A DNA stretch of 64,000 nt from Seonamhaeicola sediminis (GTDB lineage Bacteria; Bacteroidota; Bacteroidia; Flavobacteriales; Flavobacteriaceae). Shown here piece after piece: positions 1-59,276 of this stretch (within the stretch, counting starts at the first letter, position 1; every line of letters begins with the position of its first letter). Location: positions 372,001 through 436,000 of the forward strand of contig NZ_SMZJ02000001.1 in assembly GCF_004358095.2 (NCBI RefSeq), written 5' to 3'. The translations under genes and the position numbers were made by a program. Below the pieces are notes generated by a model. The model made no database searches. It worked only from the letters and a program-made list of their open reading frames with translations, and was not told the DNA's origin.

Positions 1-2348
1 TCTTTTACTGTGTTATCAGATGCAGGATAATTTGTTAAACTCGGTGATTTTTCTGGTTTTGGTCCTAAAATTATTCCGCCTTGTGCCACTAATTGTTCTA
101 ATTTGGTCAATAATTCTGGACGCATGGTTTTAAAAGGAGGTAACACCATGACTTTATAACTCATGCCATCTGGCAATACAAAACGTCCATCCTTAACAGA
201 AAGTCTATCTATAATTACTTCTGCGTTGATATAATCGTACGAATAGCCTTTTGGAATTTCTGGAATTCTACCTCCAGTCATAATAGGCGCATCTTCCCCA
301 ATAAAATAACAAACATCAGCTACGTATTTGCCTTGTTGTAACAAATGCTGACAACGGCGTAAATAATCAAAATACGTATCTGCTTGACTAAACCAAGTAT
401 TGTGACGGTTAAATTCTGTACCAAACCAAGCATTCATTCCTGGTTTTCTGTTATCATCTGGTTGTTGAATGTACAAATGCAGTACAAAATGATTGATACC
501 CTCAGTTAACGCCCAATCACCACGCTTTTTTAACATGGCTGGATGCCTTAAATAGGCTCTTCTTGATGAAGTAAATGCTTCTGCGGAAGTAATGGGTTTA
601 CCATAAGTATGTGCTGTAGAAGATGATGCTTTACATTCGATATTACCTAATGTGCCTTCATTCCAAAACTCGCCAGCAATTAAATCAGACTGTCCTCCAT
701 ACATCATAAATTCACTAGGAAACCCCCAATGCCCGTAATTTTCTAACCAAGTTTTTAAGTTGTGTTTGTTACTTGCTTTTTTAAGGCCTCCTACATATTC
801 ATAGGCCACATCATCTGCAATAGAACGACGTAAATCCCATAGAAAGCGTTCGGATAATTCCACACTTCCTACAATTCTACCAGAAAGTACTGGCAAAAAA
901 GGGACAGGGTCGTAACCGTATTTTTCCTTGAACTTTACTTCATAACCATCGGTCCAGTTTTGAGAGCCTTGTTCGTAGCTATCTGCCACAACATATTTAA
1001 AAGCAGATTTGCTTTCTTCGGGAATACGTTTTAAAAATTCACCTACAAAATTGTCGAAATGATACTGTGCCAAACCACTATTCATTTTATCGATTTCATA
1101 ACCTACACCCTGAGGAGCAGCTGGTGCATTTTTTGTTCCTGTTGGGGTCATTCCCATGCGCATAATCGTCCAATTCCCCTCTGGTGCATCCCAATTAAGA
1201 ACGCCGTTTTCATCCAATTTATCACTCAAATCGATAACTTCATTTGGGTTAACGGTAAAACTCTTGTCTTTAAGAGCTTCTTGTCTTCCAAAAATGTAAG
1301 TATCCCAATCAGGTTTTGGTGTAGAATGCATTTTACCCAATTGTTTCTCTATGTATTTATCTAGAACCGGTGCTTCAGAAATAGTAATTTCGGCAAAACC
1401 AAAGCCTGTATTTCTCTGGGTTATAAAGTTGCTACATTTTAGTACAAACTGCTTCGCTTTCTTTTCTGGAAGTATGGTAGCAAAATCTCCTGTTTCAATC
1501 GAAGCTACATTAGGTGTAATACGAAAACGGTCAAAATGAAATTCTTTGACTAATTTCTCTTTACCATCAATCACAGCAAATAAACTCATATTACATTTAA
1601 ACGCTCTACTTGGAATGATAGTTATAGAACGTGCTGTAATCGCTTCTGCAAGGTCAAAACTAATTTCTAAAGTTTTTCCCTTTTTTGGTTCAAAGCTGGT
1701 ATCTGCTTCCTTGTTGCCATCAGACAAAACACTTACATCAACGTCGTTCCAGTTAGCAGTAATTTTTGTGGGAATAAATTGTGTGCTTCGTTTTTCAACA
1801 TCTGAAGATTTGAACGCGAAGGTATGCGTATCTTGAAACTTTTCTTTTGGCTTCTTTAATGATAATGTTAACGCTTTACCTCCTGAAACCTTTATTTCAC
1901 TATAAGTTAAATAACGCATAGCTTTGGTATAATCTACCCAAGGACCACCACTTTGACTCCAACCAGGGCAATTGAAAATACCAATGTCTACACCAATACG
2001 TTTGCCCTCTACAACAGCGTGTACCATATGACTCCACCAATCTTCACTCAACATAGGCACTTTTCCATCTTTATGTGCCGGGTTTATATTACCAATTAAA
2101 GCGCCACCAATACCTGCTTTTTTCATGGCTTCTAAGTCTTTGGTGATTCCATCTTTTGATATATCATCATTAATCCAATACCAATAACACCAAATGGTAT
2201 TATCTTCTGTTGGTTTTACGAAACCAGATTTTATGATGTCGTAATTCTGTTCTGAAATTTGTTGACTCTTCGATTCATTGCACGAACATAGAAGGGTAAA
2301 TACAAGAAGTAACAACAATTTTGGTTGATAATATGATTTTTTTTTCAT
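1..2348 (-). CDS. GH106-type alpha-L-rhamnosidase, lipoprotein (3' end cut by window)
   Basis: The frame opens at an ATG at 2348 and runs off the window, giving about 782 residues of a family usually near 1,100. The N-terminus is a lipoprotein signal with a lipobox-like LCSC ending at Cys23, so the protein is probably membrane-anchored. It resembles the other GH106 proteins here: an early motif DGITKDLEAMKKAGIGGA, then ADSYEQGSQNWTD (about 456), WLENYGHWGFP (about 534) and TSAEAFTSS (about 589). The glutamates in these blocks are candidate catalytic residues by analogy with the family. It should release alpha-L-rhamnose from oligosaccharides. It is the last visible gene of the operon starting at 23.0 kb, 46 bp after the neighbouring GH106. 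The C-terminal sugar-binding part is not visible. Confidence 0.85.
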   Translation of the reverse strand, partial: MKKKSYYQPKLLLLLVFTLLCSCNESKSQQISEQNYDIIKSGFVKPTEDNTIWCYWYWINDDISKDGITKDLEAMKKAGIGGALIGNINPAHKDGKVPMLSEDWWSHMVHAVVEGKRIGVDIGIFNCPGWSQSGGPWVDYTKAMRYLTYSEIKVSGGKALTLSLKKPKEKFQDTHTFAFKSSDVEKRSTQFIPTKITANWNDVDVSVLSDGNKEADTSFEPKKGKTLEISFDLAEAITARSITIIPSRAFKCNMSLFAVIDGKEKLVKEFHFDRFRITPNVASIETGDFATILPEKKAKQFVLKCSNFITQRNTGFGFAEITISEAPVLDKYIEKQLGKMHSTPKPDWDTYIFGRQEALKDKSFTVNPNEVIDLSDKLDENGVLNWDAPEGNWTIMRMGMTPTGTKNAPAAPQGVGYEIDKMNSGLAQYHFDNFVGEFLKRIPEESKSAFKYVVADSYEQGSQNWTDGYEVKFKEKYGYDPVPFLPVLSGRIVGSVELSERFLWDLRRSIADDVAYEYVGGLKKASNKHNLKTWLENYGHWGFPSEFMMYGGQSDLIAGEFWNEGTLGNIECKASSSTAHTYGKPITSAEAFTSSRRAYLRHPAMLKKRGDWALTEGINHFVLHLYIQQPDDNRKPGMNAWFGTEFNRHNTWFSQADTYFDYLRRCQHLLQQGKYVADVCYFIGEDAPIMTGGRIPEIPKGYSYDYINAEVIIDRLSVKDGRFVLPDGMSYKVMVLPPFKTMRPELLTKLEQLVAQGGIILGPKPEKSPSLTNYPASDNTVK

Positions 2349-11122: not shown

Positions 11123-12910
11123 TTATTCCGTTTTTATTGATTTTTTTAAATCGTAAATATCGTTTCTAATGTCATTCAATTCTCCTACAATTAAGTAATA
11201 ATCAAACTCATACACCGTATTTTTGTTTAATGTTGCAGGGTGAATTGGAGCCATATACGAAGTTGCACTGTCATAGGCTTCATAACCTGGGTCTTTAGCC
11301 ATACCTGCTAAAAAGTTAGCGCATTTTGGAGAATATACTCCCATTCCCCATAAGTCATCATTTACAAAAGCCATCCAACTTTCGGTAACCATATTGTTTT
11401 TGTATTTGCCCCAAAAACCACTTCGTAGGTTGACTACTTTTGGATTATCTAAAGGTTCACCCGTAAATGGCTTGTCTCCAAAATAGGAATACAAATTATT
11501 TAAGGCCGATATTGGATACACTGCTGGCAACTCTTGGTTGTGCGTTTTTCCTTCTCCATAAATGGAATCGGTTCTGTGACAAGTTAACTTATTTTGAACC
11601 TTAATAACATTACCTTCTAATGTAGTCCATTGTTCCATAATGGCTTCTGCTGCTTTGTTTTTCATATCCCAAAGCATAGGGATACATTTTACATACAGCG
11701 TATTTCCTTCTTGCTTGTATTCTAGAATTTCTGCTCGGTTACGATAGCAATCGCCAACCTGAATGGGATTCCAAGACCAAGGAGACCAAGCTTTTTTTTG
11801 TCCTTCGTTTTGTCTATTGATGATGTTGCCTCCATAATACGATTGCTGAATGTATCTACCTTCATCATGAACATTTACAATATTTCTATCCACATCTGAC
11901 TTAGAAATATAAGCTATGGCTCCTCCTCTTCTTAAATCCAACTTTAAACGAAGTTCATCATTACCTAGTTCCATAAAAGTGGGAATGGTAGGATTTATCA
12001 ATCCGTAAGCCTTTCTCACATTATTAAAAAATAATTGTTCCTCGCTCAAATCATTTCGAGTTTTACAATACTTTTCTAAAATTTGAACTGCATTATTGTA
12101 GGTTCCCCGTAAACTTGACAATGGCCAATTGCTACCAAATAACAATCGATTTGGACCAAAAGCCTCAAGATTAGCATCCAATAAAGGTTTGTAATATTTT
12201 AGTTTTTTAGGAGCGTTATTTTTTCCAGAAAGGGTATGAAGCGCAGATATCTTCATAAATACATTTGGAAAAGACGCCACTTTTTGAAGTGCTTTTTTGT
12301 AATTTTCTTCATTTTGCAGTACGCCATTTTTTAATTTGCCACCTCCAAAATGATTGACTACAATATGCATGTTTGGGTATTTTTTAGCGATAGTTGCTAC
12401 ATGTTTTAACCCATTCATTTCGAGTACTAAATTACGTTTATCTAATTCTCTTAATTGTTTTAAAACTTCAGGATTTGAAAAATCCAATCCTTTATATCTT
12501 GGACGAACGCCTCTAAACCTGGTATTCTTTTTTAAAGCATCTAAATCACTTTTAAAATTAGCATCTAAAGGATTTAAATTCACTGTAAACCCGAGTATGT
12601 TATCAGATTCGCTAGCTATTTTAGACAACCAAAAATTATCTTCTCTTCTACTGCTTGCTTCTACAAGATATGCATAGTTAAACCCTGATGAATTGGCTAC
12701 TTCTAAAAAATCTTTTTGTAAATGCGGACGAAACAAGTCGTGGTTACTTTCCTTTTTCTTGTTATTAAGAAATGCATAGCTACTGTCACGATTCGTATCA
12801 TAAAAATGAATATGTGCATCTATCCGAGCGGTTTTATGTTGACCGTAGGATGCTTTTGTAAACGCTAAAAGCGAAATAAAAACAACGTATATTTTTAAAT
12901 TAATCGTCAT
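11123..12910 (-). CDS. Amidohydrolase_2-type enzyme fused to an unassigned C-terminal domain
   Basis: About 595 residues. The frame stays open to 12946, overlapping the previous gene, but the ATG at 12910 directly starts a signal peptide (MTINLKIYVVFISLLAFTKASYG) and leaves a 14-bp gap, so I prefer it. Residues about 28-300 form an amidohydrolase/lactonase barrel: IDAHIHF (metal ligands H33, H35), VVNHFGGGK (about 183) and FGSNWPLSS (about 258). Many relatives have Asp where this has Asn in GSNWP, though Asn versions also occur. Residues about 310-590 form a second, Trp- and Tyr-rich, probably beta-rich domain (DEGRYIQQSYYGG, WSPWSWNPIQVGD) that I cannot assign. Sugar-lactone hydrolysis plus carbohydrate binding or cleavage is plausible but is inference. 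Confidence 0.72.
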   Translation of the reverse strand: MTINLKIYVVFISLLAFTKASYGQHKTARIDAHIHFYDTNRDSSYAFLNNKKKESNHDLFRPHLQKDFLEVANSSGFNYAYLVEASSRREDNFWLSKIASESDNILGFTVNLNPLDANFKSDLDALKKNTRFRGVRPRYKGLDFSNPEVLKQLRELDKRNLVLEMNGLKHVATIAKKYPNMHIVVNHFGGGKLKNGVLQNEENYKKALQKVASFPNVFMKISALHTLSGKNNAPKKLKYYKPLLDANLEAFGPNRLLFGSNWPLSSLRGTYNNAVQILEKYCKTRNDLSEEQLFFNNVRKAYGLINPTIPTFMELGNDELRLKLDLRRGGAIAYISKSDVDRNIVNVHDEGRYIQQSYYGGNIINRQNEGQKKAWSPWSWNPIQVGDCYRNRAEILEYKQEGNTLYVKCIPMLWDMKNKAAEAIMEQWTTLEGNVIKVQNKLTCHRTDSIYGEGKTHNQELPAVYPISALNNLYSYFGDKPFTGEPLDNPKVVNLRSGFWGKYKNNMVTESWMAFVNDDLWGMGVYSPKCANFLAGMAKDPGYEAYDSATSYMAPIHPATLNKNTVYEFDYYLIVGELNDIRNDIYDLKKSIKTE

Positions 12911-12924
12911 AAAAGTAATTCCAA

Positions 12925-14013
12925 CTATTTTGTAACCACATCCCAAACTTTGGAGCGTATGGATTTGCCTCCTTTATTTTCAACGGTGAGCACAACGGTC
13001 CAATGGTCTCCAGAGCTATATTGATGTACTGGATTTTGTTCATTAGAAGTTGTTCCATCCCCAAAATCCCAAGTCCATTTTTCAACATCTCCCACAGTTT
13101 CATCTTTAAAAGCAAAAACACGACTGTCTCTATCTACCTCAACAAAAGACCAATTGGCTTGAAGCTCTGGTGCTAATTCCTTAATCAATGGCATTAATCT
13201 AAAGGCATTCATAAAATCGCCATCATGAATCATATTAATATTATGCGAAAGACTTGTAAAATCCTTTCTTTCTTTATTATCATTATCATAATCGATAACA
13301 CTCCAAGACATGGCGATAATTTCATTTTCTTTAAGCGTTGAAACAGCAGAACGATTGATACCTTCAATGGCGGCATAATCGAATGGTGTAATCCAAAATT
13401 CCATTTTGAGTGTACCAGGTTTACCTTGTTTTAAATTATGCTGATAAGCAGCATTGGCATAAGGGAAGTCTTTAATCCAAGGCGTATTACCCCAAACCAT
13501 GGCCCAATCTTTATTTACTGCAGGCATAAAAACGTGGTAATTTTGTGCGTGAGCACCATGACCTCTAAAATGTAATTCTTCAATAGGAATATGTTTTTTA
13601 TTGGCATTCCATTTTTTTATGAAATTACCACCCGACACATCGGCATCTACTACCAATTCGAAAATATCTTGTCTAATATCGAGTTGTTCAAATTCCCAGA
13701 AATCATCAAAAACCTCAACATAAAAATATAATCGGTTCAAGTCTTTTACCCACCCTACTTTAACTGAGATATCTAAATCGTTTGCATCAAGATTAAAGCC
13801 ATTGCCATTGATAGCTTCTTTCATTTGGTCTAACCCAATGGCATAAGTATCTGGAACTAGATTCCAATCAGAAAAATCGCCATCAATTCGAGGCATTTTG
13901 TGTTGCGGAAATTGAAAAATTGGGTAAATGGTATCACGACTGGATTGGGCATAAGTTTTCAAAAAACCTAATCCAAAAACAAAAATCCATACAAAACAAA
14001 TCAGTAAACGCAT
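12925..14013 (-). CDS. Secreted CBM9-like and PKD domain protein
   Basis: A 362-residue protein with a signal peptide (MRLLICFVWIFVFGLGFLKTYAQ). Residues about 38-255 resemble a CBM9-type carbohydrate-binding domain: PRIDGDFSDWNLVPD, then NRLYFYVEVFDDFWEFE and a block typical of the family (LKMEFWITPFDYA). Residues about 275-360 are a PKD fold with the hallmark WTWDFGDGTTSNEQNPVHQY. No catalytic signature is visible. It is probably a sugar-binding accessory protein outside the inner membrane. It lies 9 bp after the sulfatase stop and 14 bp before the amidohydrolase ATG, so it is made with both. The bound ligand is unknown. Confidence 0.75.
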   Translation of the reverse strand: MRLLICFVWIFVFGLGFLKTYAQSSRDTIYPIFQFPQHKMPRIDGDFSDWNLVPDTYAIGLDQMKEAINGNGFNLDANDLDISVKVGWVKDLNRLYFYVEVFDDFWEFEQLDIRQDIFELVVDADVSGGNFIKKWNANKKHIPIEELHFRGHGAHAQNYHVFMPAVNKDWAMVWGNTPWIKDFPYANAAYQHNLKQGKPGTLKMEFWITPFDYAAIEGINRSAVSTLKENEIIAMSWSVIDYDNDNKERKDFTSLSHNINMIHDGDFMNAFRLMPLIKELAPELQANWSFVEVDRDSRVFAFKDETVGDVEKWTWDFGDGTTSNEQNPVHQYSSGDHWTVVLTVENKGGKSIRSKVWDVVTK

Positions 14014-18276: not shown

Positions 18277-20637
18277 TTACTTATAAATAGTTGCGAAATT
18301 CCATTTCCCTTCTTCAACCTCAAATGAAATAAAATCTTCATCTTCATCGATGAGCTTGAGATTTTTTGACTTGGTTTTTAATTTCCCCTTTTTCCAAATT
18401 TCTTTACCATTTACCAAAATTTTTGCAATTGCTTTTTCTTCTTTTGGAAGATATACTGTAGCTCTGGTTTTTGCAGGCGAGTTGAAATTAACTTGATATA
18501 CTTTATCTGTTTTTTCAGCCTCTAAAATGATAACGCCTTTAACAGAAGGGACAATTTGTTTTACAGTAGTTAAGTACGCAAAGTTGGGTTTTACTTCAAA
18601 GGTTTCCCACGCCACACTTGTTGGTTTAACACCTGCAATGTATCTAGACAACACATAATTAGGGGCATTCCAAGCATGGTTGTACGTTCCTCGAAGTTTA
18701 GGTAGAAATTTTTCGTACAGTGTTGTTAACCATTCCATATTTACTTGTTCCTCATAACGCACTTTCATGCGTTCTAACCCCTTCTCATATTGCCCTGTAA
18801 GCATTATGGCTTCTTCTACCATCCATTCCATATGCGGACTAGATTTCTTTACTGGAACTAAAACACTATCAACTAAAATATTGTAGTGTTCTTTTTTTGC
18901 TAGTCCGCTAATAATAGCCAAAGCACTTACACGCTCTTCTATTAACTTATCTTTGGATCCGTAACGATTTCCTTGCCAATACTCTTTTTCAAAATTGGCT
19001 TTAATGCTCTTAATTCTCAGATTTAACCATTCCAAATCTTGCTTTCTATCTAAAGTAATTGCCATTTTTTTTGTGGCGTTCAATGCCATGTAATACAAAA
19101 TAACATTTACAGGAACTTGGTCTGGATCTATGCCCCAATCAATCCAATTGGCATATCCCTTTCGATGTTCAGGTAAACCATTGGGTTGCATATTCCAAAG
19201 TTTTAAATACTTTAAAATAGAGGGATATGCATTTTCTAAAGTTTTTTTATCACCTGTATTGTAGTAATACTGCCAAACAACTTGGTCTATAAATTGTAAA
19301 CTTTGTCCTGTTAGCTCACTACTTTTACCTCGATATGCTCCAAAGCCAGGTGCTAATCCTTGAATAGTATCTCCTTTTCTATAAGCAATAGTATTGTCAA
19401 TTCCTTTTTTTAAGAGTAGTCGTCCTGCATTGTCAAGAGAGTAAAAAACAGCCCCTGTTTGGTCTGCCACATCACCAATCCATAAACCACGTTCTCTATC
19501 TGGGCAGTCCATAAAACCATCTCTGGCACAAACATAAAGTGTATTTCTTGCCATCCACCAAAGTCTGGAAAAATAAGGGTCACTGCATTCAAAATGACCA
19601 GTCATTTCACCCACTCCAGTCCATCTGTATTTTAGCTCTAACACCTCTACTCCAGCAGGAATTGAATATTCCACAAAATGACCATTAATCCAAGAATAAC
19701 TTTCGAATTCCTGTACACCATTTTTAGTAATGTAAGTTCCCTTTAGCATGTTGAAGGGATTATCCATATCTGCTACAATAGTTTTACCAGCTTTACTATT
19801 CACTTTTAAATAGGGCGTTATTTGCTGGTTGAAAGGTAATTTGGCACGAATTATTAGTAAAGAATCTGTTGTGTTCTTAAAAGGTAAATTAACCTTCTCT
19901 TTATTCGATTTTAGTGTGAGAGATTCGTAGTTTACCAAACCTCTATCATTCCATTGTGGAATGGCTCTTTTTACTAAAGTCCCCCAAGGTTTATTATTGG
20001 CAATACCCTTTACGATGGGTTTATTCCAATCTTTATCATCATAATTACTCGTGTACCAAGCTTGGTCAGACCAATCTCCCAAAGCTTTTCTGGCATCAAA
20101 CTTTACGTTGTAAGCATTAACACGATTGGCACTACCTCCTCCCCCGCCGCTTTTGGGGTCGTAAGCAGGGTGTACTTTCATTTTCCAAGTGTTATCAGAT
20201 TCTAGAGCTTGCTGTCCTAAATCCGCATAAAACAATAAACCGCCTTTACCACTATCGTCATGTACTTTTCGGGTTCTACCCCAATACCAAACCAAAATAG
20301 CAATAGTGTTTTTTCCTTCCTTTAGATATGATTTTAAATTGACCTCATCATAATAATTGGTGTCTGGTGCAGCTCCTCGAGCTAAACCGCCTTCAAACAG
20401 GACCATTTCCCCATTAACCCAAAGCCAGTATTTGGTATCTACAGCAATATTTGCCAATGCGTTTTCAGGAATGTCTTTTAGGTTGAATTCTTTTCTAAAG
20501 GCCACCCAAGTATTTGCAGGTCCAGCTTCTTCTTGCCAAATCCATTGGGCATTCCCCCAGCTATTTGAATTTGCTACTGCTGCAATTGAAGTTATAAAAA
20601 CACAAAAAAAAACTACTATCCTTTTTTTAAGTTCCAT
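18277..20637 (-). CDS. GH78-like alpha-L-rhamnosidase (paralogue 1 of tandem pair)
   Basis: 786 residues with signal peptide MELKKRIVVFFCVFITSIAAVA. The N-terminal beta-sandwich begins WGNAQWIWQEEAGPANTWV and contains LWVNGEMVLFEGGLARG. The catalytic (alpha/alpha)6 barrel has MDCPDRERGLWIGDVADQ near residue 375, which keeps the Asp, Glu and Asp of the GH78 signature DCPxRERLGWTGD. The C-terminus is a beta-sandwich. Its neighbour at 20654-23035 has the same layout with near-identical blocks, so the two arose by tandem duplication. The LWIGD form differs from the GWTGD seen in classical GH78 and in the copy at 7.1 kb, so the exact linkage or leaving group may differ. Confidence 0.85.
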   Translation of the reverse strand: MELKKRIVVFFCVFITSIAAVANSNSWGNAQWIWQEEAGPANTWVAFRKEFNLKDIPENALANIAVDTKYWLWVNGEMVLFEGGLARGAAPDTNYYDEVNLKSYLKEGKNTIAILVWYWGRTRKVHDDSGKGGLLFYADLGQQALESDNTWKMKVHPAYDPKSGGGGGSANRVNAYNVKFDARKALGDWSDQAWYTSNYDDKDWNKPIVKGIANNKPWGTLVKRAIPQWNDRGLVNYESLTLKSNKEKVNLPFKNTTDSLLIIRAKLPFNQQITPYLKVNSKAGKTIVADMDNPFNMLKGTYITKNGVQEFESYSWINGHFVEYSIPAGVEVLELKYRWTGVGEMTGHFECSDPYFSRLWWMARNTLYVCARDGFMDCPDRERGLWIGDVADQTGAVFYSLDNAGRLLLKKGIDNTIAYRKGDTIQGLAPGFGAYRGKSSELTGQSLQFIDQVVWQYYYNTGDKKTLENAYPSILKYLKLWNMQPNGLPEHRKGYANWIDWGIDPDQVPVNVILYYMALNATKKMAITLDRKQDLEWLNLRIKSIKANFEKEYWQGNRYGSKDKLIEERVSALAIISGLAKKEHYNILVDSVLVPVKKSSPHMEWMVEEAIMLTGQYEKGLERMKVRYEEQVNMEWLTTLYEKFLPKLRGTYNHAWNAPNYVLSRYIAGVKPTSVAWETFEVKPNFAYLTTVKQIVPSVKGVIILEAEKTDKVYQVNFNSPAKTRATVYLPKEEKAIAKILVNGKEIWKKGKLKTKSKNLKLIDEDEDFISFEVEEGKWNFATIYK

Positions 20638-20653: not shown

Positions 20654-23035
20654 CTATTTATATTCAGCATTTACACTCCATTCTCCTGAAGACAATTTAA
20701 ATTTCAAAAATTTATCATCTTCACCAACATAGCTTACTCCAGCAATCATCTTTTTTGCTTTTCCTTTTTTCCATACTTTTTTTCCGTTTATTTTAATCGA
20801 AGCAACTTGTTTTTCTGATATTGGAATACCAATAATGGCATCAGTTTTATTTGGTGATTCTAAGGTTAATTGATAAGCGCTATCTGTTTTATTCATATCA
20901 ATAACAACATTACCTTTAACTGTTGGAATTGTTTTTTCTATCTTTTTAAAATGCACCAAAGTTGGCATAATTTGAAATTCACTCCAACCCACTTTAGTAG
21001 GTGCTACACCTGCTACATATTTTGATAAAATGGTATTAGAACCGTTCCAAGCGTGATTGTAACTTCCTTTATTACCAAATTTTTCATACAGTGTGGTTAT
21101 CGATTTTTTATCTACCTGACTTTGGTACATCTCTTTCATTCGTTGTAAAGAGGCTTTTGGTCTACCAGCTATAAACATCGCTTCCTCTGCCATCCATTCA
21201 AAATGCGGACTAGAAAATCGGTTTGGCAACAAGACATTATCTACAATTTGATTGTAATATTTTGGGTTTGCAATACCTGAAACAATAGCGATAGCATTGG
21301 CTCTATCGTCTTTAAATTTTTCAGCATTAGTACTATAAAATCCGTTTTTCCAATAAGCCTTTTCGAAAGCAGGTTTCATGGTATTCATTCTGTCATTATA
21401 CCATTTAACATGTTCCTGTTTACCTAATACTTCTGCCATATTTTTAGCTTTTTCTAAAGCCAAATAATAAAACGCCATTTGGATAGGTTCAGCATCGGTA
21501 GTATTGGCTACACCCCAATCTAACCAATCCCATGTATCGGGACTTTTTCTTTTGCGGTATTCAGGCAAGCCATTTTCTTTCATTGGAAACAAATCCAAAT
21601 ACTTGTATAAATAAGGATAGGCTTTTTCTAGTGTTTCCTTGTCGCCTGTATTGAGATAGTATGGCCAAACTACCTGCGAAATAAACTGTAAACTTTGGCA
21701 AACCAATTCACGCACTCTGAGTGGCCCCAAAGCGCCAATAACATCATTTTCGCTAAAAGCAGTGGTTTGCAAAATTGCCTTCTTTAGTAATTGACGACCC
21801 GCATTATCCATAGCATAAAATAAATAGCCTGTTTGGTCTGCTACATCGCCAATCCATAAAGCACGTTCACGGTCTGGACAATCCATAAAATTATCTCGAG
21901 CACAAACAAAAAGTGTATTGTTACCCATATCCCACAAACGGTTGTAAAATGGGTCGTCTATTTGAAAACTACCAGCCATTTCTCCTACGCTCATCCATCG
22001 GTATTTTAACGCCTTCACTTTTACGCCTGCAGGAATGGTGTACAGAACTTCATGCCCATTAAACCATGAGTAACTTTCAAACGTTTGAAGTCCATCTTTA
22101 GCAATATAAGTAGCATGGATACTGTTTCTACTGTTATCTGTAGTAATAAAGATACTATCTCCTGCTTTGGCTTCAATCTCTAAATACGGGGTTACCTGTT
22201 TATTAAAAGGAAGTCTTGCTTTTATGGTTTTACCATCACTTACAAATGGGAATTTCAATTCCTCGTGATTGGCATAATTCTGCAAACCGTGATTCACTAA
22301 ATGAGGTACTATATTTTTTTCGACATTATACCAAGGTGCTACACCTAGTTTTCCTTTTTCTGAAGCGTTTGCCCAATTCGTATCGTTAAAACTTTGGGTG
22401 TACCATGCTTTGTCTGTCCAGTCATTTAAGGCTTTTTGTGCATTAAATTTTACAGAATATTGAACTAAAGATTTACTAGCTGGTGCTATGGTATTATCAT
22501 AACCTGGATGTTGTAATACTTTCCAACTGCTATCAGAAACCAAATGTTGATTTCCTATTTCTGAGGAGAATAAAAAACCGCCTTTACCACTATCGATATG
22601 CGTTCCTTTATGGGTTTCACGACCCCAAAACCACACTAAAATAGCAATGGTGTTTTTCCCTTTTTTTAAATAGGGTTGAATGTTTAAGGTTTCGTACCAA
22701 GAGTTGGCGGGTGTTATTTTTTCTTTACGATTCCATGTTCCTGCTTGACTTGGCCCTCGTGAAAGTCCTCCTTCAAAAATCACCATTTCTCCGTTAATCC
22801 ACAACCAAAACTTACTATCTACTGAAATATGCGCTTCCACTACTTCTGGAATTTCGTCTAGTGAAATTGTTTTTCTAAAACTCACCCAAGCATTCGATGG
22901 TCCATCTTCTTGTTGCCAAATCCATTGGGCTCCTTTCCAATTGGGGTTGGTGGCAAAAGCTGAAGTGCAAAGAATTACGAATAAAAAAATAATTGCATTT
23001 TGTAGCAATTGAATTGGTTTAAATTTTGTTGACAT
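20654..23035 (-). CDS. GH78-like alpha-L-rhamnosidase (paralogue 2, first gene of the long operon)
   Basis: 793 residues, starting at ATG 23035 with a signal peptide ending near TSAFA. The domain order matches the neighbour at 18277-20637: WKGAQWIWQQEDGPSNAWV, LWINGEMVIFEGGLSRG, then MDCPDRERALWIGDVADQ near residue 383 with the GH78 acidic residues conserved. It carries an insertion around residues 98-110 relative to its paralogue. Promoter module 23078-23122 lies upstream, and eleven genes follow with gaps of at most 63 bp, so this is probably the first gene of a 23-kb operon. Its signal peptide and upstream DNA are nearly the same as those of the unrelated protein at 23432-25333. Confidence 0.85.
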   Translation of the reverse strand: MSTKFKPIQLLQNAIIFLFVILCTSAFATNPNWKGAQWIWQQEDGPSNAWVSFRKTISLDEIPEVVEAHISVDSKFWLWINGEMVIFEGGLSRGPSQAGTWNRKEKITPANSWYETLNIQPYLKKGKNTIAILVWFWGRETHKGTHIDSGKGGFLFSSEIGNQHLVSDSSWKVLQHPGYDNTIAPASKSLVQYSVKFNAQKALNDWTDKAWYTQSFNDTNWANASEKGKLGVAPWYNVEKNIVPHLVNHGLQNYANHEELKFPFVSDGKTIKARLPFNKQVTPYLEIEAKAGDSIFITTDNSRNSIHATYIAKDGLQTFESYSWFNGHEVLYTIPAGVKVKALKYRWMSVGEMAGSFQIDDPFYNRLWDMGNNTLFVCARDNFMDCPDRERALWIGDVADQTGYLFYAMDNAGRQLLKKAILQTTAFSENDVIGALGPLRVRELVCQSLQFISQVVWPYYLNTGDKETLEKAYPYLYKYLDLFPMKENGLPEYRKRKSPDTWDWLDWGVANTTDAEPIQMAFYYLALEKAKNMAEVLGKQEHVKWYNDRMNTMKPAFEKAYWKNGFYSTNAEKFKDDRANAIAIVSGIANPKYYNQIVDNVLLPNRFSSPHFEWMAEEAMFIAGRPKASLQRMKEMYQSQVDKKSITTLYEKFGNKGSYNHAWNGSNTILSKYVAGVAPTKVGWSEFQIMPTLVHFKKIEKTIPTVKGNVVIDMNKTDSAYQLTLESPNKTDAIIGIPISEKQVASIKINGKKVWKKGKAKKMIAGVSYVGEDDKFLKFKLSSGEWSVNAEYK

Positions 23036-42366: not shown

Positions 42367-44280
42367 TTAACTTACTGAAATTATTATTTCCAACGCCTTG
42401 TTATCCTCAAAAAAGATTTCAAATGGTAAAGCCTCCACCCCAGGTACCATATTAAAGGTTCTTTTACCTTCAAGAGCTTTCATTTTAATTGGTGCGCTTG
42501 CTTTAATCGTAACTAAGCCTTCAGGTTTTTGAATGGTGATTTCATTTTCACTAACATTTGTTACAACTTCACTTGAAGGAGAAACAATTGGCAACACAAA
42601 GGCAGTTTGCTCTTTAATATCTTGTTTTGTACTTACCTTAATCTCTGTTTTATCAGCAGTACAATTGTAGGCAATATCGAATGTAGAAGCAGTCCCCTCA
42701 ACTTCTTGTCTGCCACCATTTTTTAGTTTTACATCCGCCATCAACTCTATACTTCCGTTTTCATCACTAGAAGTAACTGTGGCTGGTAAATCGTATAAAT
42801 TGGTATACCAAATCTCATTTTTAAAAGTTTCTATACGAGGCGTTAAACAGATATCCTTTTCTGGTTGTACTTGTTGGTTGTTTTTTTCAACCATTTCATA
42901 TTTAGCCATACTAGCAGCACAGATCAAGCCAACTTTGTTGTGATATAATATTCCTAAAGCACCACCTGAAGCTTGCCTAAAATCTTCCTTATAATGATAT
43001 TCTGCATCGTAGGCACTTACCGTTCCTCTCCAATCGCCCCTGGCGAACAAAAACACATCCAAATCCTTAAAATGTTTGACGCCATCTGCAGTTGCTCTAG
43101 GTAAGGCTGCATTTACATTTATTTCTGGTAAATGGTCCCAATGATCTAATAAGGCTGCTAAAGGTTTGGCGTGTGTAAATGTATGGTGTACACAAGGTGG
43201 AATTCCTGCTTCAATAAAACCAGGACCTCCATGAATTAACCCATCTGCTGTGCAACGTTGTAATAATTCTGTATTTTTTACGGCTGCTGTTCCAAAAGCA
43301 GGATTAATATGAGCCATCATTCCAAATGCAGGTTGACTACCATCACAGGTTCTACTGCCCCAATAACTCCACTTATACATGCGGTTACCCCAACTGTTGT
43401 CCCAACCACCATCAGGCAACATAAATTCTAAATGGCTGTTGAGAGATTTGGTTAAGATTTGTAATAACTCATCATCTTTTTCCTTAAGCGCATACATCAC
43501 TAAACTGTTGAGGGTTTCTTCTACATTGTATCCTAAGTCTACACCGTGTAATCCTTTTTCGCTTAACTTGCTTGAGCTCTTTTTACACTCGCCAAATAAC
43601 AAACCTTCATTGGGTGTAAAATAAGCTTTTACTTGAGATGCTAATGTTTTACTCTTGGCTTTAAAATCATCTCTATTGACAACGTTACCAATTAAGTTTA
43701 GCCCATAAACCGCTGTTCCCGGATAATTGATATTTGTAAAATCTATGGTAAATTCGTCATATATATATTGACCCGCTTTTTCTAGACGTACTGTCCATGC
43801 TTTTCGAGTTTCTTCATCTAAAACATGACCATGATAATGCAATGCTTCAGCTAGAGCTATCGCTCCAAAAACGGTAATACCTTTCCACGATTTTGGATTT
43901 TTGATCACTGTCCAAGCGCCATTTTCTTGAGAGACATTATTTTCAGCCCAAGTCATAACCAATTTAGCTCCTTCAACATATTTATCATCACCGGTTTTAT
44001 CCGCCATAAATAAAAACGGATACACAGCATCCATACAACGCCCATGAATATGAGAACATGACGGACACCCTAAAGCACCGTGAACCTCTAAATTTGACGG
44101 ATTGTTAATTTGTACTTTTAACATGCCATCACTCCAATCTTTTAACAAACTTGTAATCAAGTTTTTGAATTCTAAAGAGTGTTCTGGATGGCTTTCACAT
44201 GCATTTAGCAATCCTGCCATTGGTAATGATAAACCAACACCGGCAATCGTAGATAATTGTATAAAGTTTCGTCTTTTCAT
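42367..44280 (-). CDS. Tat-exported lipoprotein with predicted toroid fold, possible lyase or hydrolase of unassigned family
   Basis: 637 residues. The N-terminus MKRRNFIQLSTIAGVGLSLP has the twin-arginine motif and is followed by a lipobox (LLNAC, Cys28), so it is exported folded and anchored. Residues about 40-400 look like an (alpha/alpha) toroid: CPSCSHIHGRCMDAVYPFLF, GITVFGAIALAEALHYHG, HGVDLGYNVEETLNSLVMYA, LPDGGWDNSWGNRMYKWSYW, and HHTFTHAKPLAALLDHWDHL. The last part (about 420-637) is beta-rich. This architecture is common in polysaccharide lyases and some hydrolases, but I cannot place the family. It has its own promoter module (44300-44344). Confidence 0.6.
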   Translation of the reverse strand: MKRRNFIQLSTIAGVGLSLPMAGLLNACESHPEHSLEFKNLITSLLKDWSDGMLKVQINNPSNLEVHGALGCPSCSHIHGRCMDAVYPFLFMADKTGDDKYVEGAKLVMTWAENNVSQENGAWTVIKNPKSWKGITVFGAIALAEALHYHGHVLDEETRKAWTVRLEKAGQYIYDEFTIDFTNINYPGTAVYGLNLIGNVVNRDDFKAKSKTLASQVKAYFTPNEGLLFGECKKSSSKLSEKGLHGVDLGYNVEETLNSLVMYALKEKDDELLQILTKSLNSHLEFMLPDGGWDNSWGNRMYKWSYWGSRTCDGSQPAFGMMAHINPAFGTAAVKNTELLQRCTADGLIHGGPGFIEAGIPPCVHHTFTHAKPLAALLDHWDHLPEINVNAALPRATADGVKHFKDLDVFLFARGDWRGTVSAYDAEYHYKEDFRQASGGALGILYHNKVGLICAASMAKYEMVEKNNQQVQPEKDICLTPRIETFKNEIWYTNLYDLPATVTSSDENGSIELMADVKLKNGGRQEVEGTASTFDIAYNCTADKTEIKVSTKQDIKEQTAFVLPIVSPSSEVVTNVSENEITIQKPEGLVTIKASAPIKMKALEGKRTFNMVPGVEALPFEIFFEDNKALEIIISVS

Positions 44281-44416: not shown

Positions 44417-45988
44417 TTATTTAACTACGAGTTTGGGATGGAATACATTGTTTTCATCTGTAACAGCCCTTACAAGGTAAATACCCGTGTTTAACCTGCC
44501 TCTGTTATTAACTTCAATATTCTCTGCACCTGTTGAATTTTTATAAACAACTTTACCAAGAATGTTAAACACTTCTATTCTTTTTACACCAGAAATATTT
44601 TTAAATGCAATTGTAAAACTATCAGTTGTTGGGTTTGGATAAATTTTCATTGAAGATACCTTGAGATCTATATCAGAAATACTCAATGACTGGCTTGTTG
44701 GTATAGCCTCCCAACTACCTCTATCATCGGTTTCTAAAACATTTAATTTATGATAAACGCCCCCATCAGCTTCATGATATAAAATTCTACCACTAAACCT
44801 TGATTCAAATCTGTAAGTATCCTCCAATTCGTCATAATGAATTGTCCAAGATTTATCGGTATCTGTAGTTGGAGCATCTTTACCTGTACTTACTACAAGA
44901 AAAGGGTCTGTACCTACTGCCCTTAGTACATCAATATTATTACCCTTATCTTGACTGTCAATATTGTGATAAGCGCCACTTTCTACAAATTTCCAATGGG
45001 TATTGAAGGGCTCACCTGAATCGGTCATGGTTACTGGAGTGGCACTATTCCCAACGGCAGTTAAAAATTTACCGGTTGCTACATTTCGCAACCTATAAAT
45101 ATCGTCTGACGGAACTGGGTCACCAGTATCTACAACCTCCATCTTCTGGTATGTTGTATTTGCCCATCTTATTTGAGCACGACCTCCTTTAACTCTATAG
45201 GCACCATACCTAATACCTGATTCCGTTCCTCTTTCCGGATCTGGGATGTTCCAAGGAAAAGATACACCATCAATTACCGCATCACAATAATGAATTTTTT
45301 TAGTGGCATCGTTTGGGTCTTCCCTGAAACCAACCTCTAGCTCAAAAGTAATTTCGGCATCTTTGTCTACCTCAATTAGCTCCACAACTTCTCTACCACT
45401 TCCCGATCCACCACGTTCTAAAATACGCTCAGCAAATATTTTGAAGGCTACCTGCTTGCCTGCGTTGGCGCCTGTGCCAAAAATAGGTTTTGCTAGATAT
45501 AGACAAATTGCAGGATCTGGAGGTCCACCACCGCCTGTATGCTTTCCTTTAGCTTGAGCAATATAGCTACCGTCTTGACTCTCAATACCCGTGTAGCCAG
45601 CCTCCAAAATCCTAAATGTCCCCGTAAATCTTGCATAACTTCCAACACCTGTTTCCTGAGATCTTGGTAATGAGCGCTCTATTCTTGGTTGTAAAGTGTT
45701 AGGTGCATCCCAGTGGTTAGACCCATCGGTGATATTATAAACGCCCCAAGTTTTTCCATAGACATCACGTTCTGAATAATCGGAATAACAACTTCTATCA
45801 TCAACAGTACCCACATTGACAGGGTTTGTTATGTCTACATTTCTGGTACTATTGTTTTCAAATTCACCAGAAGCTGGGCAACTTAAGTCTGGGTTCGTAT
45901 CTTCATCAGGTGCTGTTTGTGCTATTAAACAAACAGAAAAAAGTGCAAAACTAAATAGCAATATGGATTTAAAAGTATTCTTTTTCAT
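44417..45988 (-). CDS. Probable PL28 ulvan lyase with binding module and T9SS sorting domain
   Basis: 523 residues with a signal peptide ([24 protein letters not shown]). Residues about 24-285 look like the beta-jelly-roll PL28 catalytic domain: [78 protein letters not shown] and [19 protein letters not shown]. The family call rests on my memory of the Nonlabens and Formosa lyases. Residues about 295-440 look like a beta-trefoil-type binding module, where an ulvan-binding domain has been reported in such lyases. The last 80 residues are a T9SS sorting domain ([15 protein letters not shown] to HPKLVVK). It should cut the sulfated rhamnose-uronate backbone outside the cell by beta-elimination. 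Confidence 0.75.
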
Positions 45989-58529: not shown

Positions 58530-59276
58530 TTATCTCTTCACAATTTTTCTTGTTGCAAATGTATTTGTTCCAATAAACTTAACAACATAAACACCGCTTG
58601 ATAAGGCTGTTGCGTCTAAATTTAAAGATGACAAACCTTTTGTATCTCTAACAATTAAAGACTTACCAACTAAGTTATACACCTCAACTTTATTAATGTT
58701 TGATGTTAGCCCACTGATTTCAATTGCATTGTTAATTGGATTTGACACAAAAATTGAACTTTGATTAAACTCTTTATTGCTTAATGGGTTGGTGGATGTA
58801 AAAATCCACTGTGTTCTGGTAAAATTACTACCCGAATAGCCTATGGCGTCTGTACTATTATTGTAAACTAAAAATCTTCCAGAACTGGTATTTGGTGTCC
58901 ATACATTGTATGTAGGTTCTCCATTTGGTCCTGTACTAGCCGTTACGGTAACAGTCCAAACATTAGGGTTTGAAGTAGATGGCGTACCACTGTAGGATAC
59001 TACAGGGATTTCTGAAGTACTATTTGCTCTAAGTATACCATCGTCTGTGTTAACAACAATATTATACTGATCTGCAACTCCTGTTGAAACAAAATCAAAT
59101 TTTGTAGCCTCTGCAGAATTGGCTGTTGCTCTAACAGCCTTAGCTCCATCATGTGACAAATAGACAACGCCATTTGTGGTGAAATTATTTAACAAATAAT
59201 ATTCTCCTGCTCCGGAAAATTGTGCAAAAGTAAATGTTGCACTAAATAAAAATAGAATAAAAGTAATTTTTTTCAT
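58530..59276 (-). CDS. Small secreted beta-trefoil-like protein with T9SS sorting domain, no catalytic domain
   Basis: 248 residues with signal peptide MKKITFILFLFSATFTFAQ. The mature part before the tail is one module of about 145 residues (GEYYLLNNFTTNGVVYLSHD, QYNIVVNTDDGILRANS, YNVWTPNTSSGRFLVYNNST) with the repeated tyrosine/tryptophan strands of a beta-trefoil-like fold, resembling the binding modules of the two neighbouring lyase-type proteins. The last 80 residues are a T9SS sorting domain (SSIFVSNPINNAIEISGL to ATRKIVKR), nearly the same as in 56750-58324. A surface polysaccharide-binding protein is the simplest reading. A terminator lies 68 bp downstream; upstream is a half operator and a perfect -7 box. 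Confidence 0.75.
   Translation of the reverse strand: MKKITFILFLFSATFTFAQFSGAGEYYLLNNFTTNGVVYLSHDGAKAVRATANSAEATKFDFVSTGVADQYNIVVNTDDGILRANSTSEIPVVSYSGTPSTSNPNVWTVTVTASTGPNGEPTYNVWTPNTSSGRFLVYNNSTDAIGYSGSNFTRTQWIFTSTNPLSNKEFNQSSIFVSNPINNAIEISGLTSNINKVEVYNLVGKSLIVRDTKGLSSLNLDATALSSGVYVVKFIGTNTFATRKIVKR

Follow-up and report, generated by a model that had tools for sequence, protein, structure and literature searches.

GH174 endo-1,3-α-L-fucanases act on a polymer of a 6-deoxy-L-hexose, and in one of them, Fun174A, mutagenesis singles out residues D119, E120, and E218 (PMC11943901). In the amidohydrolase superfamily, an Asp of the kind found in the GSDWP motif deprotonates the attacking water, as described for deaminases (PMC12828455). 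Both families bear on a gene that we analysed in a 64,000-nucleotide stretch of the Seonamhaeicola sediminis genome (hereafter the window), where a secreted protein joins an Amidohydro_2 barrel to an unnamed C-terminal domain (C-domain) within an ulvan PUL. We tentatively propose, at a likelihood that we place a little short of even, that the C-domain is the working part of this protein and represents an exported carbohydrate-cleaving β-supersandwich family with a GH174-like fold, which in the ulvan PUL would cut L-rhamnose-containing oligosaccharides, the barrel being accessory; the family is new with respect to Pfam, NCBIfam, and PDB sequences, and may correspond to a very recent CAZy family.

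Gene organization and genomic context

The open reading frame of the fusion spans 11123-12946 on the minus strand and, from the ATG at 12910, encodes one intact protein of 595 aa that begins with a clear predicted signal peptide, MTINLKIYVVFISLLAFTKASYGQ (Table 1). The whole two-domain protein is also found in Seonamhaeicola aphaedonensis, Hyunsoonleella jejuensis, and Algibacter pacificus (3 of 79 distinct loci), and because the fusion recurs in these three other genomes, a sequencing artefact or frameshift is ruled out as its source. The secreted two-domain fusion reported in the preliminary description is thereby confirmed in full, and the motifs DEGRYIQQSYYGG, WSPWSWNPIQVGD, and GSNWP are all present as written there. 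The window's genome carries one copy of the C-domain. In an AlphaFold2 model of the full-length protein, the barrel is confident only in part (residues 20-80 low, pTM 0.57), and therefore we make no claim on the packing of the two halves.

Table 1 Features of the fusion gene and its surroundings. Positions refer to the window unless a locus is named.
Feature	Position	Strand	Basis or remark
Whole fusion gene	11123..12910	-	595 aa + stop; orthologues L028, L029, L032
Signal peptide, residues 1-24, without lipobox Cys	12839..12910	-	Read from sequence
Amidohydro_2 / cog3618-type barrel, residues 29-305	11996..12826	-	Pfam 9.5e-26; phmmer 4dlf; VIA Z 20.8
Linker, residues 306-312	11975..11995	-	Stand-alone relatives start with the same NPTIPTFMEL stretch
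Unnamed C-terminal β-supersandwich domain (predicted), residues 313-595, 283 aa	11126..11974	-	No family match; AF2; GH174 Z 23.3
HxH motif (H33, H35), retained	12806..12814	-	Alignment
H187 (VNHF), retained	12350..12352	-	Alignment
N261 in GSNWP; Asp in 28/28 unfused homologues	12128..12130	-	Alignment
DEGR (D349, E350, G351, R352); D, G, R invariant	11855..11866	-	Candidate catalytic acids
WNPIQVGD (W380-D387); P382, Q384, G386 invariant	11750..11773	-	Conservation
Q459-E460; E invariant	11531..11536	-	Second candidate catalytic residue
PL28 ulvan lyase	44417..45988	-	7.1e-115
GH106 α-L-rhamnosidase, runs off the window	3..2348	-	Type adjoining the C-domain elsewhere
PKD-domain protein, conserved C-domain partner (8 loci)	12925..14013	-	Neighbourhood count
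Separate Amidohydro_2 genes	L059 1581-2936; L060 10130-11485; L066 1332-2687; L070 10079-11437		
Separate Amidohydro_2 genes	L071 10253-11611; L076 1472-2818; L079 2869-4233		

The surrounding genes encode a PL28 ulvan lyase, several GH78 and GH106 proteins, a GH2 protein, a GH88/105-like protein, and four sulfatases, together with a heparinase II/III-type protein and ulvan-lyase β-trefoil proteins. The PL28 gene indicates that the locus is directed at ulvan, and what had been described as a sulfatase/lyase operon can be specified as an ulvan PUL with PL28, GH78/GH106, and sulfatase genes. Several other products of the locus are unusual. Two tandem paralogues (18277-20637 and 20654-23035), which are ~47% identical, give weak GH78-type matches and are possibly a divergent rhamnosidase subgroup, while a 637-aa protein adjoining the PL28 lyase (42367-44280) has no Pfam match at all. 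A 3-keto-disaccharide hydrolase domain protein (PF06439, 17560-18264) in the ulvan operon is a hint of oxidation-based glycoside cleavage, and a lone ulvan-lyase β-trefoil domain with a T9SS tail is encoded without a catalytic domain at 58530-59276. The N-terminal part of the PKD-domain protein is without assignment; this protein is missing in L032 and L089, where its signal peptide has seemingly passed to the neighbouring C-domain gene.

Distribution and conservation of the C-domain

As a single protein, residues 313-595 match no Pfam, NCBIfam, or PDB sequence, in agreement with the preliminary description, which could not assign this part. Searches with alignments of the C-domain alone likewise found no family above the cut-offs, in Pfam for the 79-member set and in both Pfam and NCBIfam for the 31-member set, and neither alignment matched a PDB sequence. 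Weak profile matches, including Thrombospondin and Peptidase_S13, were discarded as chance.

A scan of GTDB genomes yielded 229 stretches encoding C-domain relatives, of which 79 distinct loci were retained. The domain does exist as a separate protein elsewhere, and in the great majority of loci: its usual form, seen in nearly all of them, is a stand-alone secreted protein of ~310 aa. Some members carry Big_2 and galactose-binding-like repeats or a T9SS sorting tail, and elsewhere the C-domain is often the only enzyme-like domain beside such modules and tails. One member (L077) is fused to a SUEL D-galactoside/L-rhamnose-binding lectin domain. Additionally, a purple-acid-phosphatase-type metallophosphatase is fused to the C-domain in L099 (2500-4950). 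The domain is rare in Bacteroidota, being present in 5/299 genomes from the family of the window and in 5/395 from its phylum; in Verrucomicrobiota it occurs in 28/289 genomes (~10%) at a loose limit, 27 of the 28 matches being strong. A search of a plasmid collection with the C-domain gave no match, and a search of viral contigs gave one distant relative only.

Over 31 divergent members, residues D37, G39, R40, Q43, P70, Q72, G74, E148, P150, and G210 of the domain are invariant (312 is added for full-protein numbering, so that D37 is D349 and E148 is E460). This set includes D349, R352, Q355, Q384, and E460, whereas E350 is conserved within the subfamily only, and no conserved His was found in the family alignment. 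Judging from this alignment, the invariant set is an active-site pattern of two carboxylates with no conserved histidine. The domain also has many conserved aromatic residues, among them the near-invariant Tyr359. The rich aromatic content noted at the outset therefore holds but understates the conservation, since Asp, Arg, Gln, and Glu residues are invariant as well.

Predicted fold of the C-domain

The AlphaFold2 model of the C-domain, built from the 79-sequence alignment, reached a mean pLDDT of 95.1 and a pTM of 0.92. Among solved structures, its nearest folds are the GH174 endo-1,3-fucanases 8jd7 (Z 23.3, rmsd 3.2, 257 aligned) and 9k1g (Z 22.7, rmsd 2.6, 245 aligned), followed by the PBCV-1 capsid protein (Z 18.0), a PL26 lyase (Z 17.7), and mutarotases (~15-16); a search with the full-length model gave the same order with GH174 first. 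The predicted fold is thus the β-supersandwich common to GH174, PL26, and mutarotases, as the "lyase-type sandwich" of the preliminary description had anticipated. GH174 was not reached by sequence when five ever-broader profiles (A1, A3, A5, A8, and A9) were run against PDB chains at E values up to 10; the identity of the C-domain to GH174 is 10-13%, and the kinship rests on the predicted model. The positions of D119/E120 and E218 of Fun174A are compatible with D37/E38 and E148 of the C-domain, as derived by range arithmetic (chain 74-376 versus model 1-280) rather than by residue alignment. On this model, the C-domain may work like GH174 without necessarily belonging to it.

A Foldseek search of BFVD returned nothing but proteins of chloroviruses and other large viruses, at low identity. 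Two large viral proteins, A7RAY6 and A7K9Q9, one of them from Chlorovirus heliozoae, contain a domain that is predicted to fold similarly (Foldseek E values of 8e-10 and 8e-9, 10% identity).

The supersandwich fold also serves non-catalytic domains and epimerases. An unlikely alternative to our proposal is that the C-domain binds glycans or serves as a structural module without catalysis, or that it is an epimerase resembling the mutarotases: galactose mutarotases have the same fold at Z ~15-16, and the conserved aromatics are many, but in most loci the domain makes up a whole secreted protein by itself, its Asp/Arg/Glu cluster is invariant, and GH174 stands 7 Z units above the mutarotases. 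Moreover, mutarotases use a conserved His, which is absent from the C-domain.

The amidohydrolase barrel

The Amidohydro_2 match of the N-terminal barrel covers residues 30-277 (Pfam, 9.5e-26). The closest function with a name is that of L-fucono-1,5-lactonase, but the score of 96.6 bits falls short of the NCBIfam equivalog cut-off of 400. The closest structure is the cog3618 protein 4dlf (VIA Z 20.8; phmmer 4.5e-14). In cog3618 proteins the Asp of the GSDWP motif is the usual water-activating residue. The preliminary description was right that GSNWP lacks this Asp: every fused protein (window, L028, L029, and L032) has Asn at the position, and all 28 unfused homologues have Asp. Furthermore, RPRY in the fused barrel replaces the RHxxQ stretch of nearly all of these 28 homologues. 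The site reads GSDWP in 4dlf and SSNWP in 6uvz, an Amidohydrolase 2 from Bifidobacterium infantis; since 6uvz likewise carries Asn, the change need not mean a dead barrel.

The barrel is dispensable, because Polaribacter septentrionalilitoris, whose C-domain is 86% identical and lies in a comparable locus, has no Amidohydro_2 gene in its genome. In the tree, the four fused and three unfused sequences form one clade (100/100); one and two origins of the fusion are not separated (AU p 0.217), and the tree is compatible with a barrel that was gained twice or lost. At the DNA level, the unfused genes of H. flava and P. aquimarinus have a leader resembling that of the fused genes, followed by the same linker, which is what either a clean excision or a clean insertion would produce. 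In L030 and L031, the stand-alone proteins retain a leader of the fused-gene type (QKDSARI in L031) joined to the linker (NSAIPTF), a junction that, as read from the sequences, could equally reflect an insertion or a deletion in a fused ancestor.

Amidohydrolase and C-domain also meet in a second arrangement. In seven loci, which carry GH2, DUF4838, or GH67N-like genes (L059, L060, L066, L070, L071, L076, and L079), the stand-alone C-domain gene is directly followed by a gene for a separate secreted Amidohydro_2 protein (~452 aa) with a signal peptide and an intact Asp. The earlier statement that such enzymes are normally cytoplasmic is therefore true in part only. Because the two meet in two different arrangements, a functional link between amidohydrolase and C-domain is plausible, and the barrel is not to be written off.

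The preliminary description had raised the idea of a periplasmic step on a lactone or ester of the glycan, which would be new to such pathways. In its full form, this reading makes the barrel a lactonase or esterase that works in the periplasm on a lactone or uronate ester derived from ulvan, with the C-domain as its carbohydrate-binding module, and we judge it slightly less probable still than a non-catalytic or epimerase C-domain. The HxH motif and third His are kept, the cog3618 fold is recognisable, the barrel is in frame in four genomes, 6uvz shares the Asn, and the adjoining Asp-bearing Amidohydro_2 proteins in seven loci suggest a working partnership. Against this, no lactonase evidence was found, the Asp base and RHxxQ are lost relative to the 28 homologues, three sister loci from close relatives have the C-domain but no barrel, and the C-domain is far commoner than the fusion and usually a whole protein, unlike the usual binding module. 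A literature search for ulvan plus amidohydrolase found nothing relevant. On these sequence comparisons the lactonase reading is weakened by the lack of the Asp base and by the dispensability of the barrel, and the interpretation first given to the gene is supported in part only. Since the usual water-activating Asp is absent, the barrel is probably accessory, either as a binding or scaffold module or as an enzyme of altered chemistry.

Gene neighbourhoods of the C-domain family

A GH106 α-L-rhamnosidase lies within 9 kb of the C-domain in 21/80 loci and is immediately adjacent in 15. The chance rate is ~3% of loci, given 0-15 GH106 matches per genome in 25 host genomes of 2.8-7.6 Mb; the binomial probability for 21/78 at 3% is 1e-14, as calculated over loci that are phylogenetically non-independent. 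In seven freshwater-type loci, the C-domain neighbours GH2, DUF4838, GH30, and DUF2961 genes instead of rhamnosidases, and a few loci are without carbohydrate genes beside the C-domain, such as L100 and L104 with Peptidase_M3 neighbours. Because of these loci, the substrate of the C-domain may vary. The least probable alternative, and a very unlikely one, is a C-domain that attacks uronic-acid bonds as a polysaccharide lyase or dehydratase, with a PL26-like use of the fold. In its favour, the PL26 exo-rhamnogalacturonan lyase ranks third among the fold groups (Z 17.7), ulvan contains uronic acids, lyases are plentiful in the locus, and Tyr359 is near-invariant and Arg352 invariant. Against it, the Z gap to GH174 is 5, and the genes that recur beside the family encode rhamnosidases, sulfatases, and GH2 proteins rather than uronate lyases.

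Proposed role of the fusion protein

Returning to a catalytic C-domain, we suggest that its most likely reaction would be the periplasmic hydrolysis of a bond in (sulfated) oligosaccharides that contain L-rhamnose, a specificity to which the GH106 neighbours, the SUEL lectin fusion in L077, and the ulvan PUL point. D349 and E460 would be the catalytic carboxylates, and R352, Q355, and Q384 would line the site. In the pathway, the domain would take its place between two sets of enzymes, the PL28 lyase with the sulfatases and the GH106, GH78, and GH88/105 proteins, with the cog3618 barrel placed between signal peptide and C-domain in one clade. A more specific version, which is possible but rather doubtful, holds that the C-domain founds a new GH family with the fold and catalytic layout of GH174, cutting the L-rhamnosyl bonds of ulvan or rhamnan sulfate, and that the reshaped barrel, also outside the cytoplasm, either acts on this sugar or presents it.

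This secreted domain, which is nameless in Pfam and NCBIfam, occurs in at least a few hundred genomes, most of them from Bacteroidota and Verrucomicrobiota. Should it prove to cleave glycans of algae or plants that are rich in rhamnose, it would fill a gap in ulvan and rhamnosidase loci, GH174 would gain a sister family, and a recurrent unannotated gene beside GH106 would be explained. The fusion with an Asp-less barrel offers a small example of how an enzyme may have evolved into an accessory part.

Comparison with known systems

The locus resembles the ulvan PUL H of Formosa agariphila, which includes the dehydratase P29_PDnc, in its marine Bacteroidota host and in its PL28, GH78, GH105-type, and sulfatase genes; it differs in that the available part of that report names neither an amidohydrolase fusion nor a protein of the C-domain family (PMC8511951). 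With the cog3618 and L-fucono-1,5-lactonase group (4dlf), the fused barrel shares the fold, the HxH motif, and the third His, but it is secreted and fused, has Asn for Asp, and is without RHxxQ. The PL26 exo-rhamnogalacturonan lyase (5xqo) likewise has a supersandwich domain (Z 17.7), but it is a multidomain fungal lyase with a lower structural score and no sequence link to the C-domain. Although the C-domain resides in ulvan and rhamnosidase loci and gives no profile match to GH174 at E 10, GH174 (Fun174A, 8jd7; Fun174Sb, 9k1g) provides its closest solved fold, and by range arithmetic an acidic pair and a Glu of the C-domain may correspond to the Fun174A residues.
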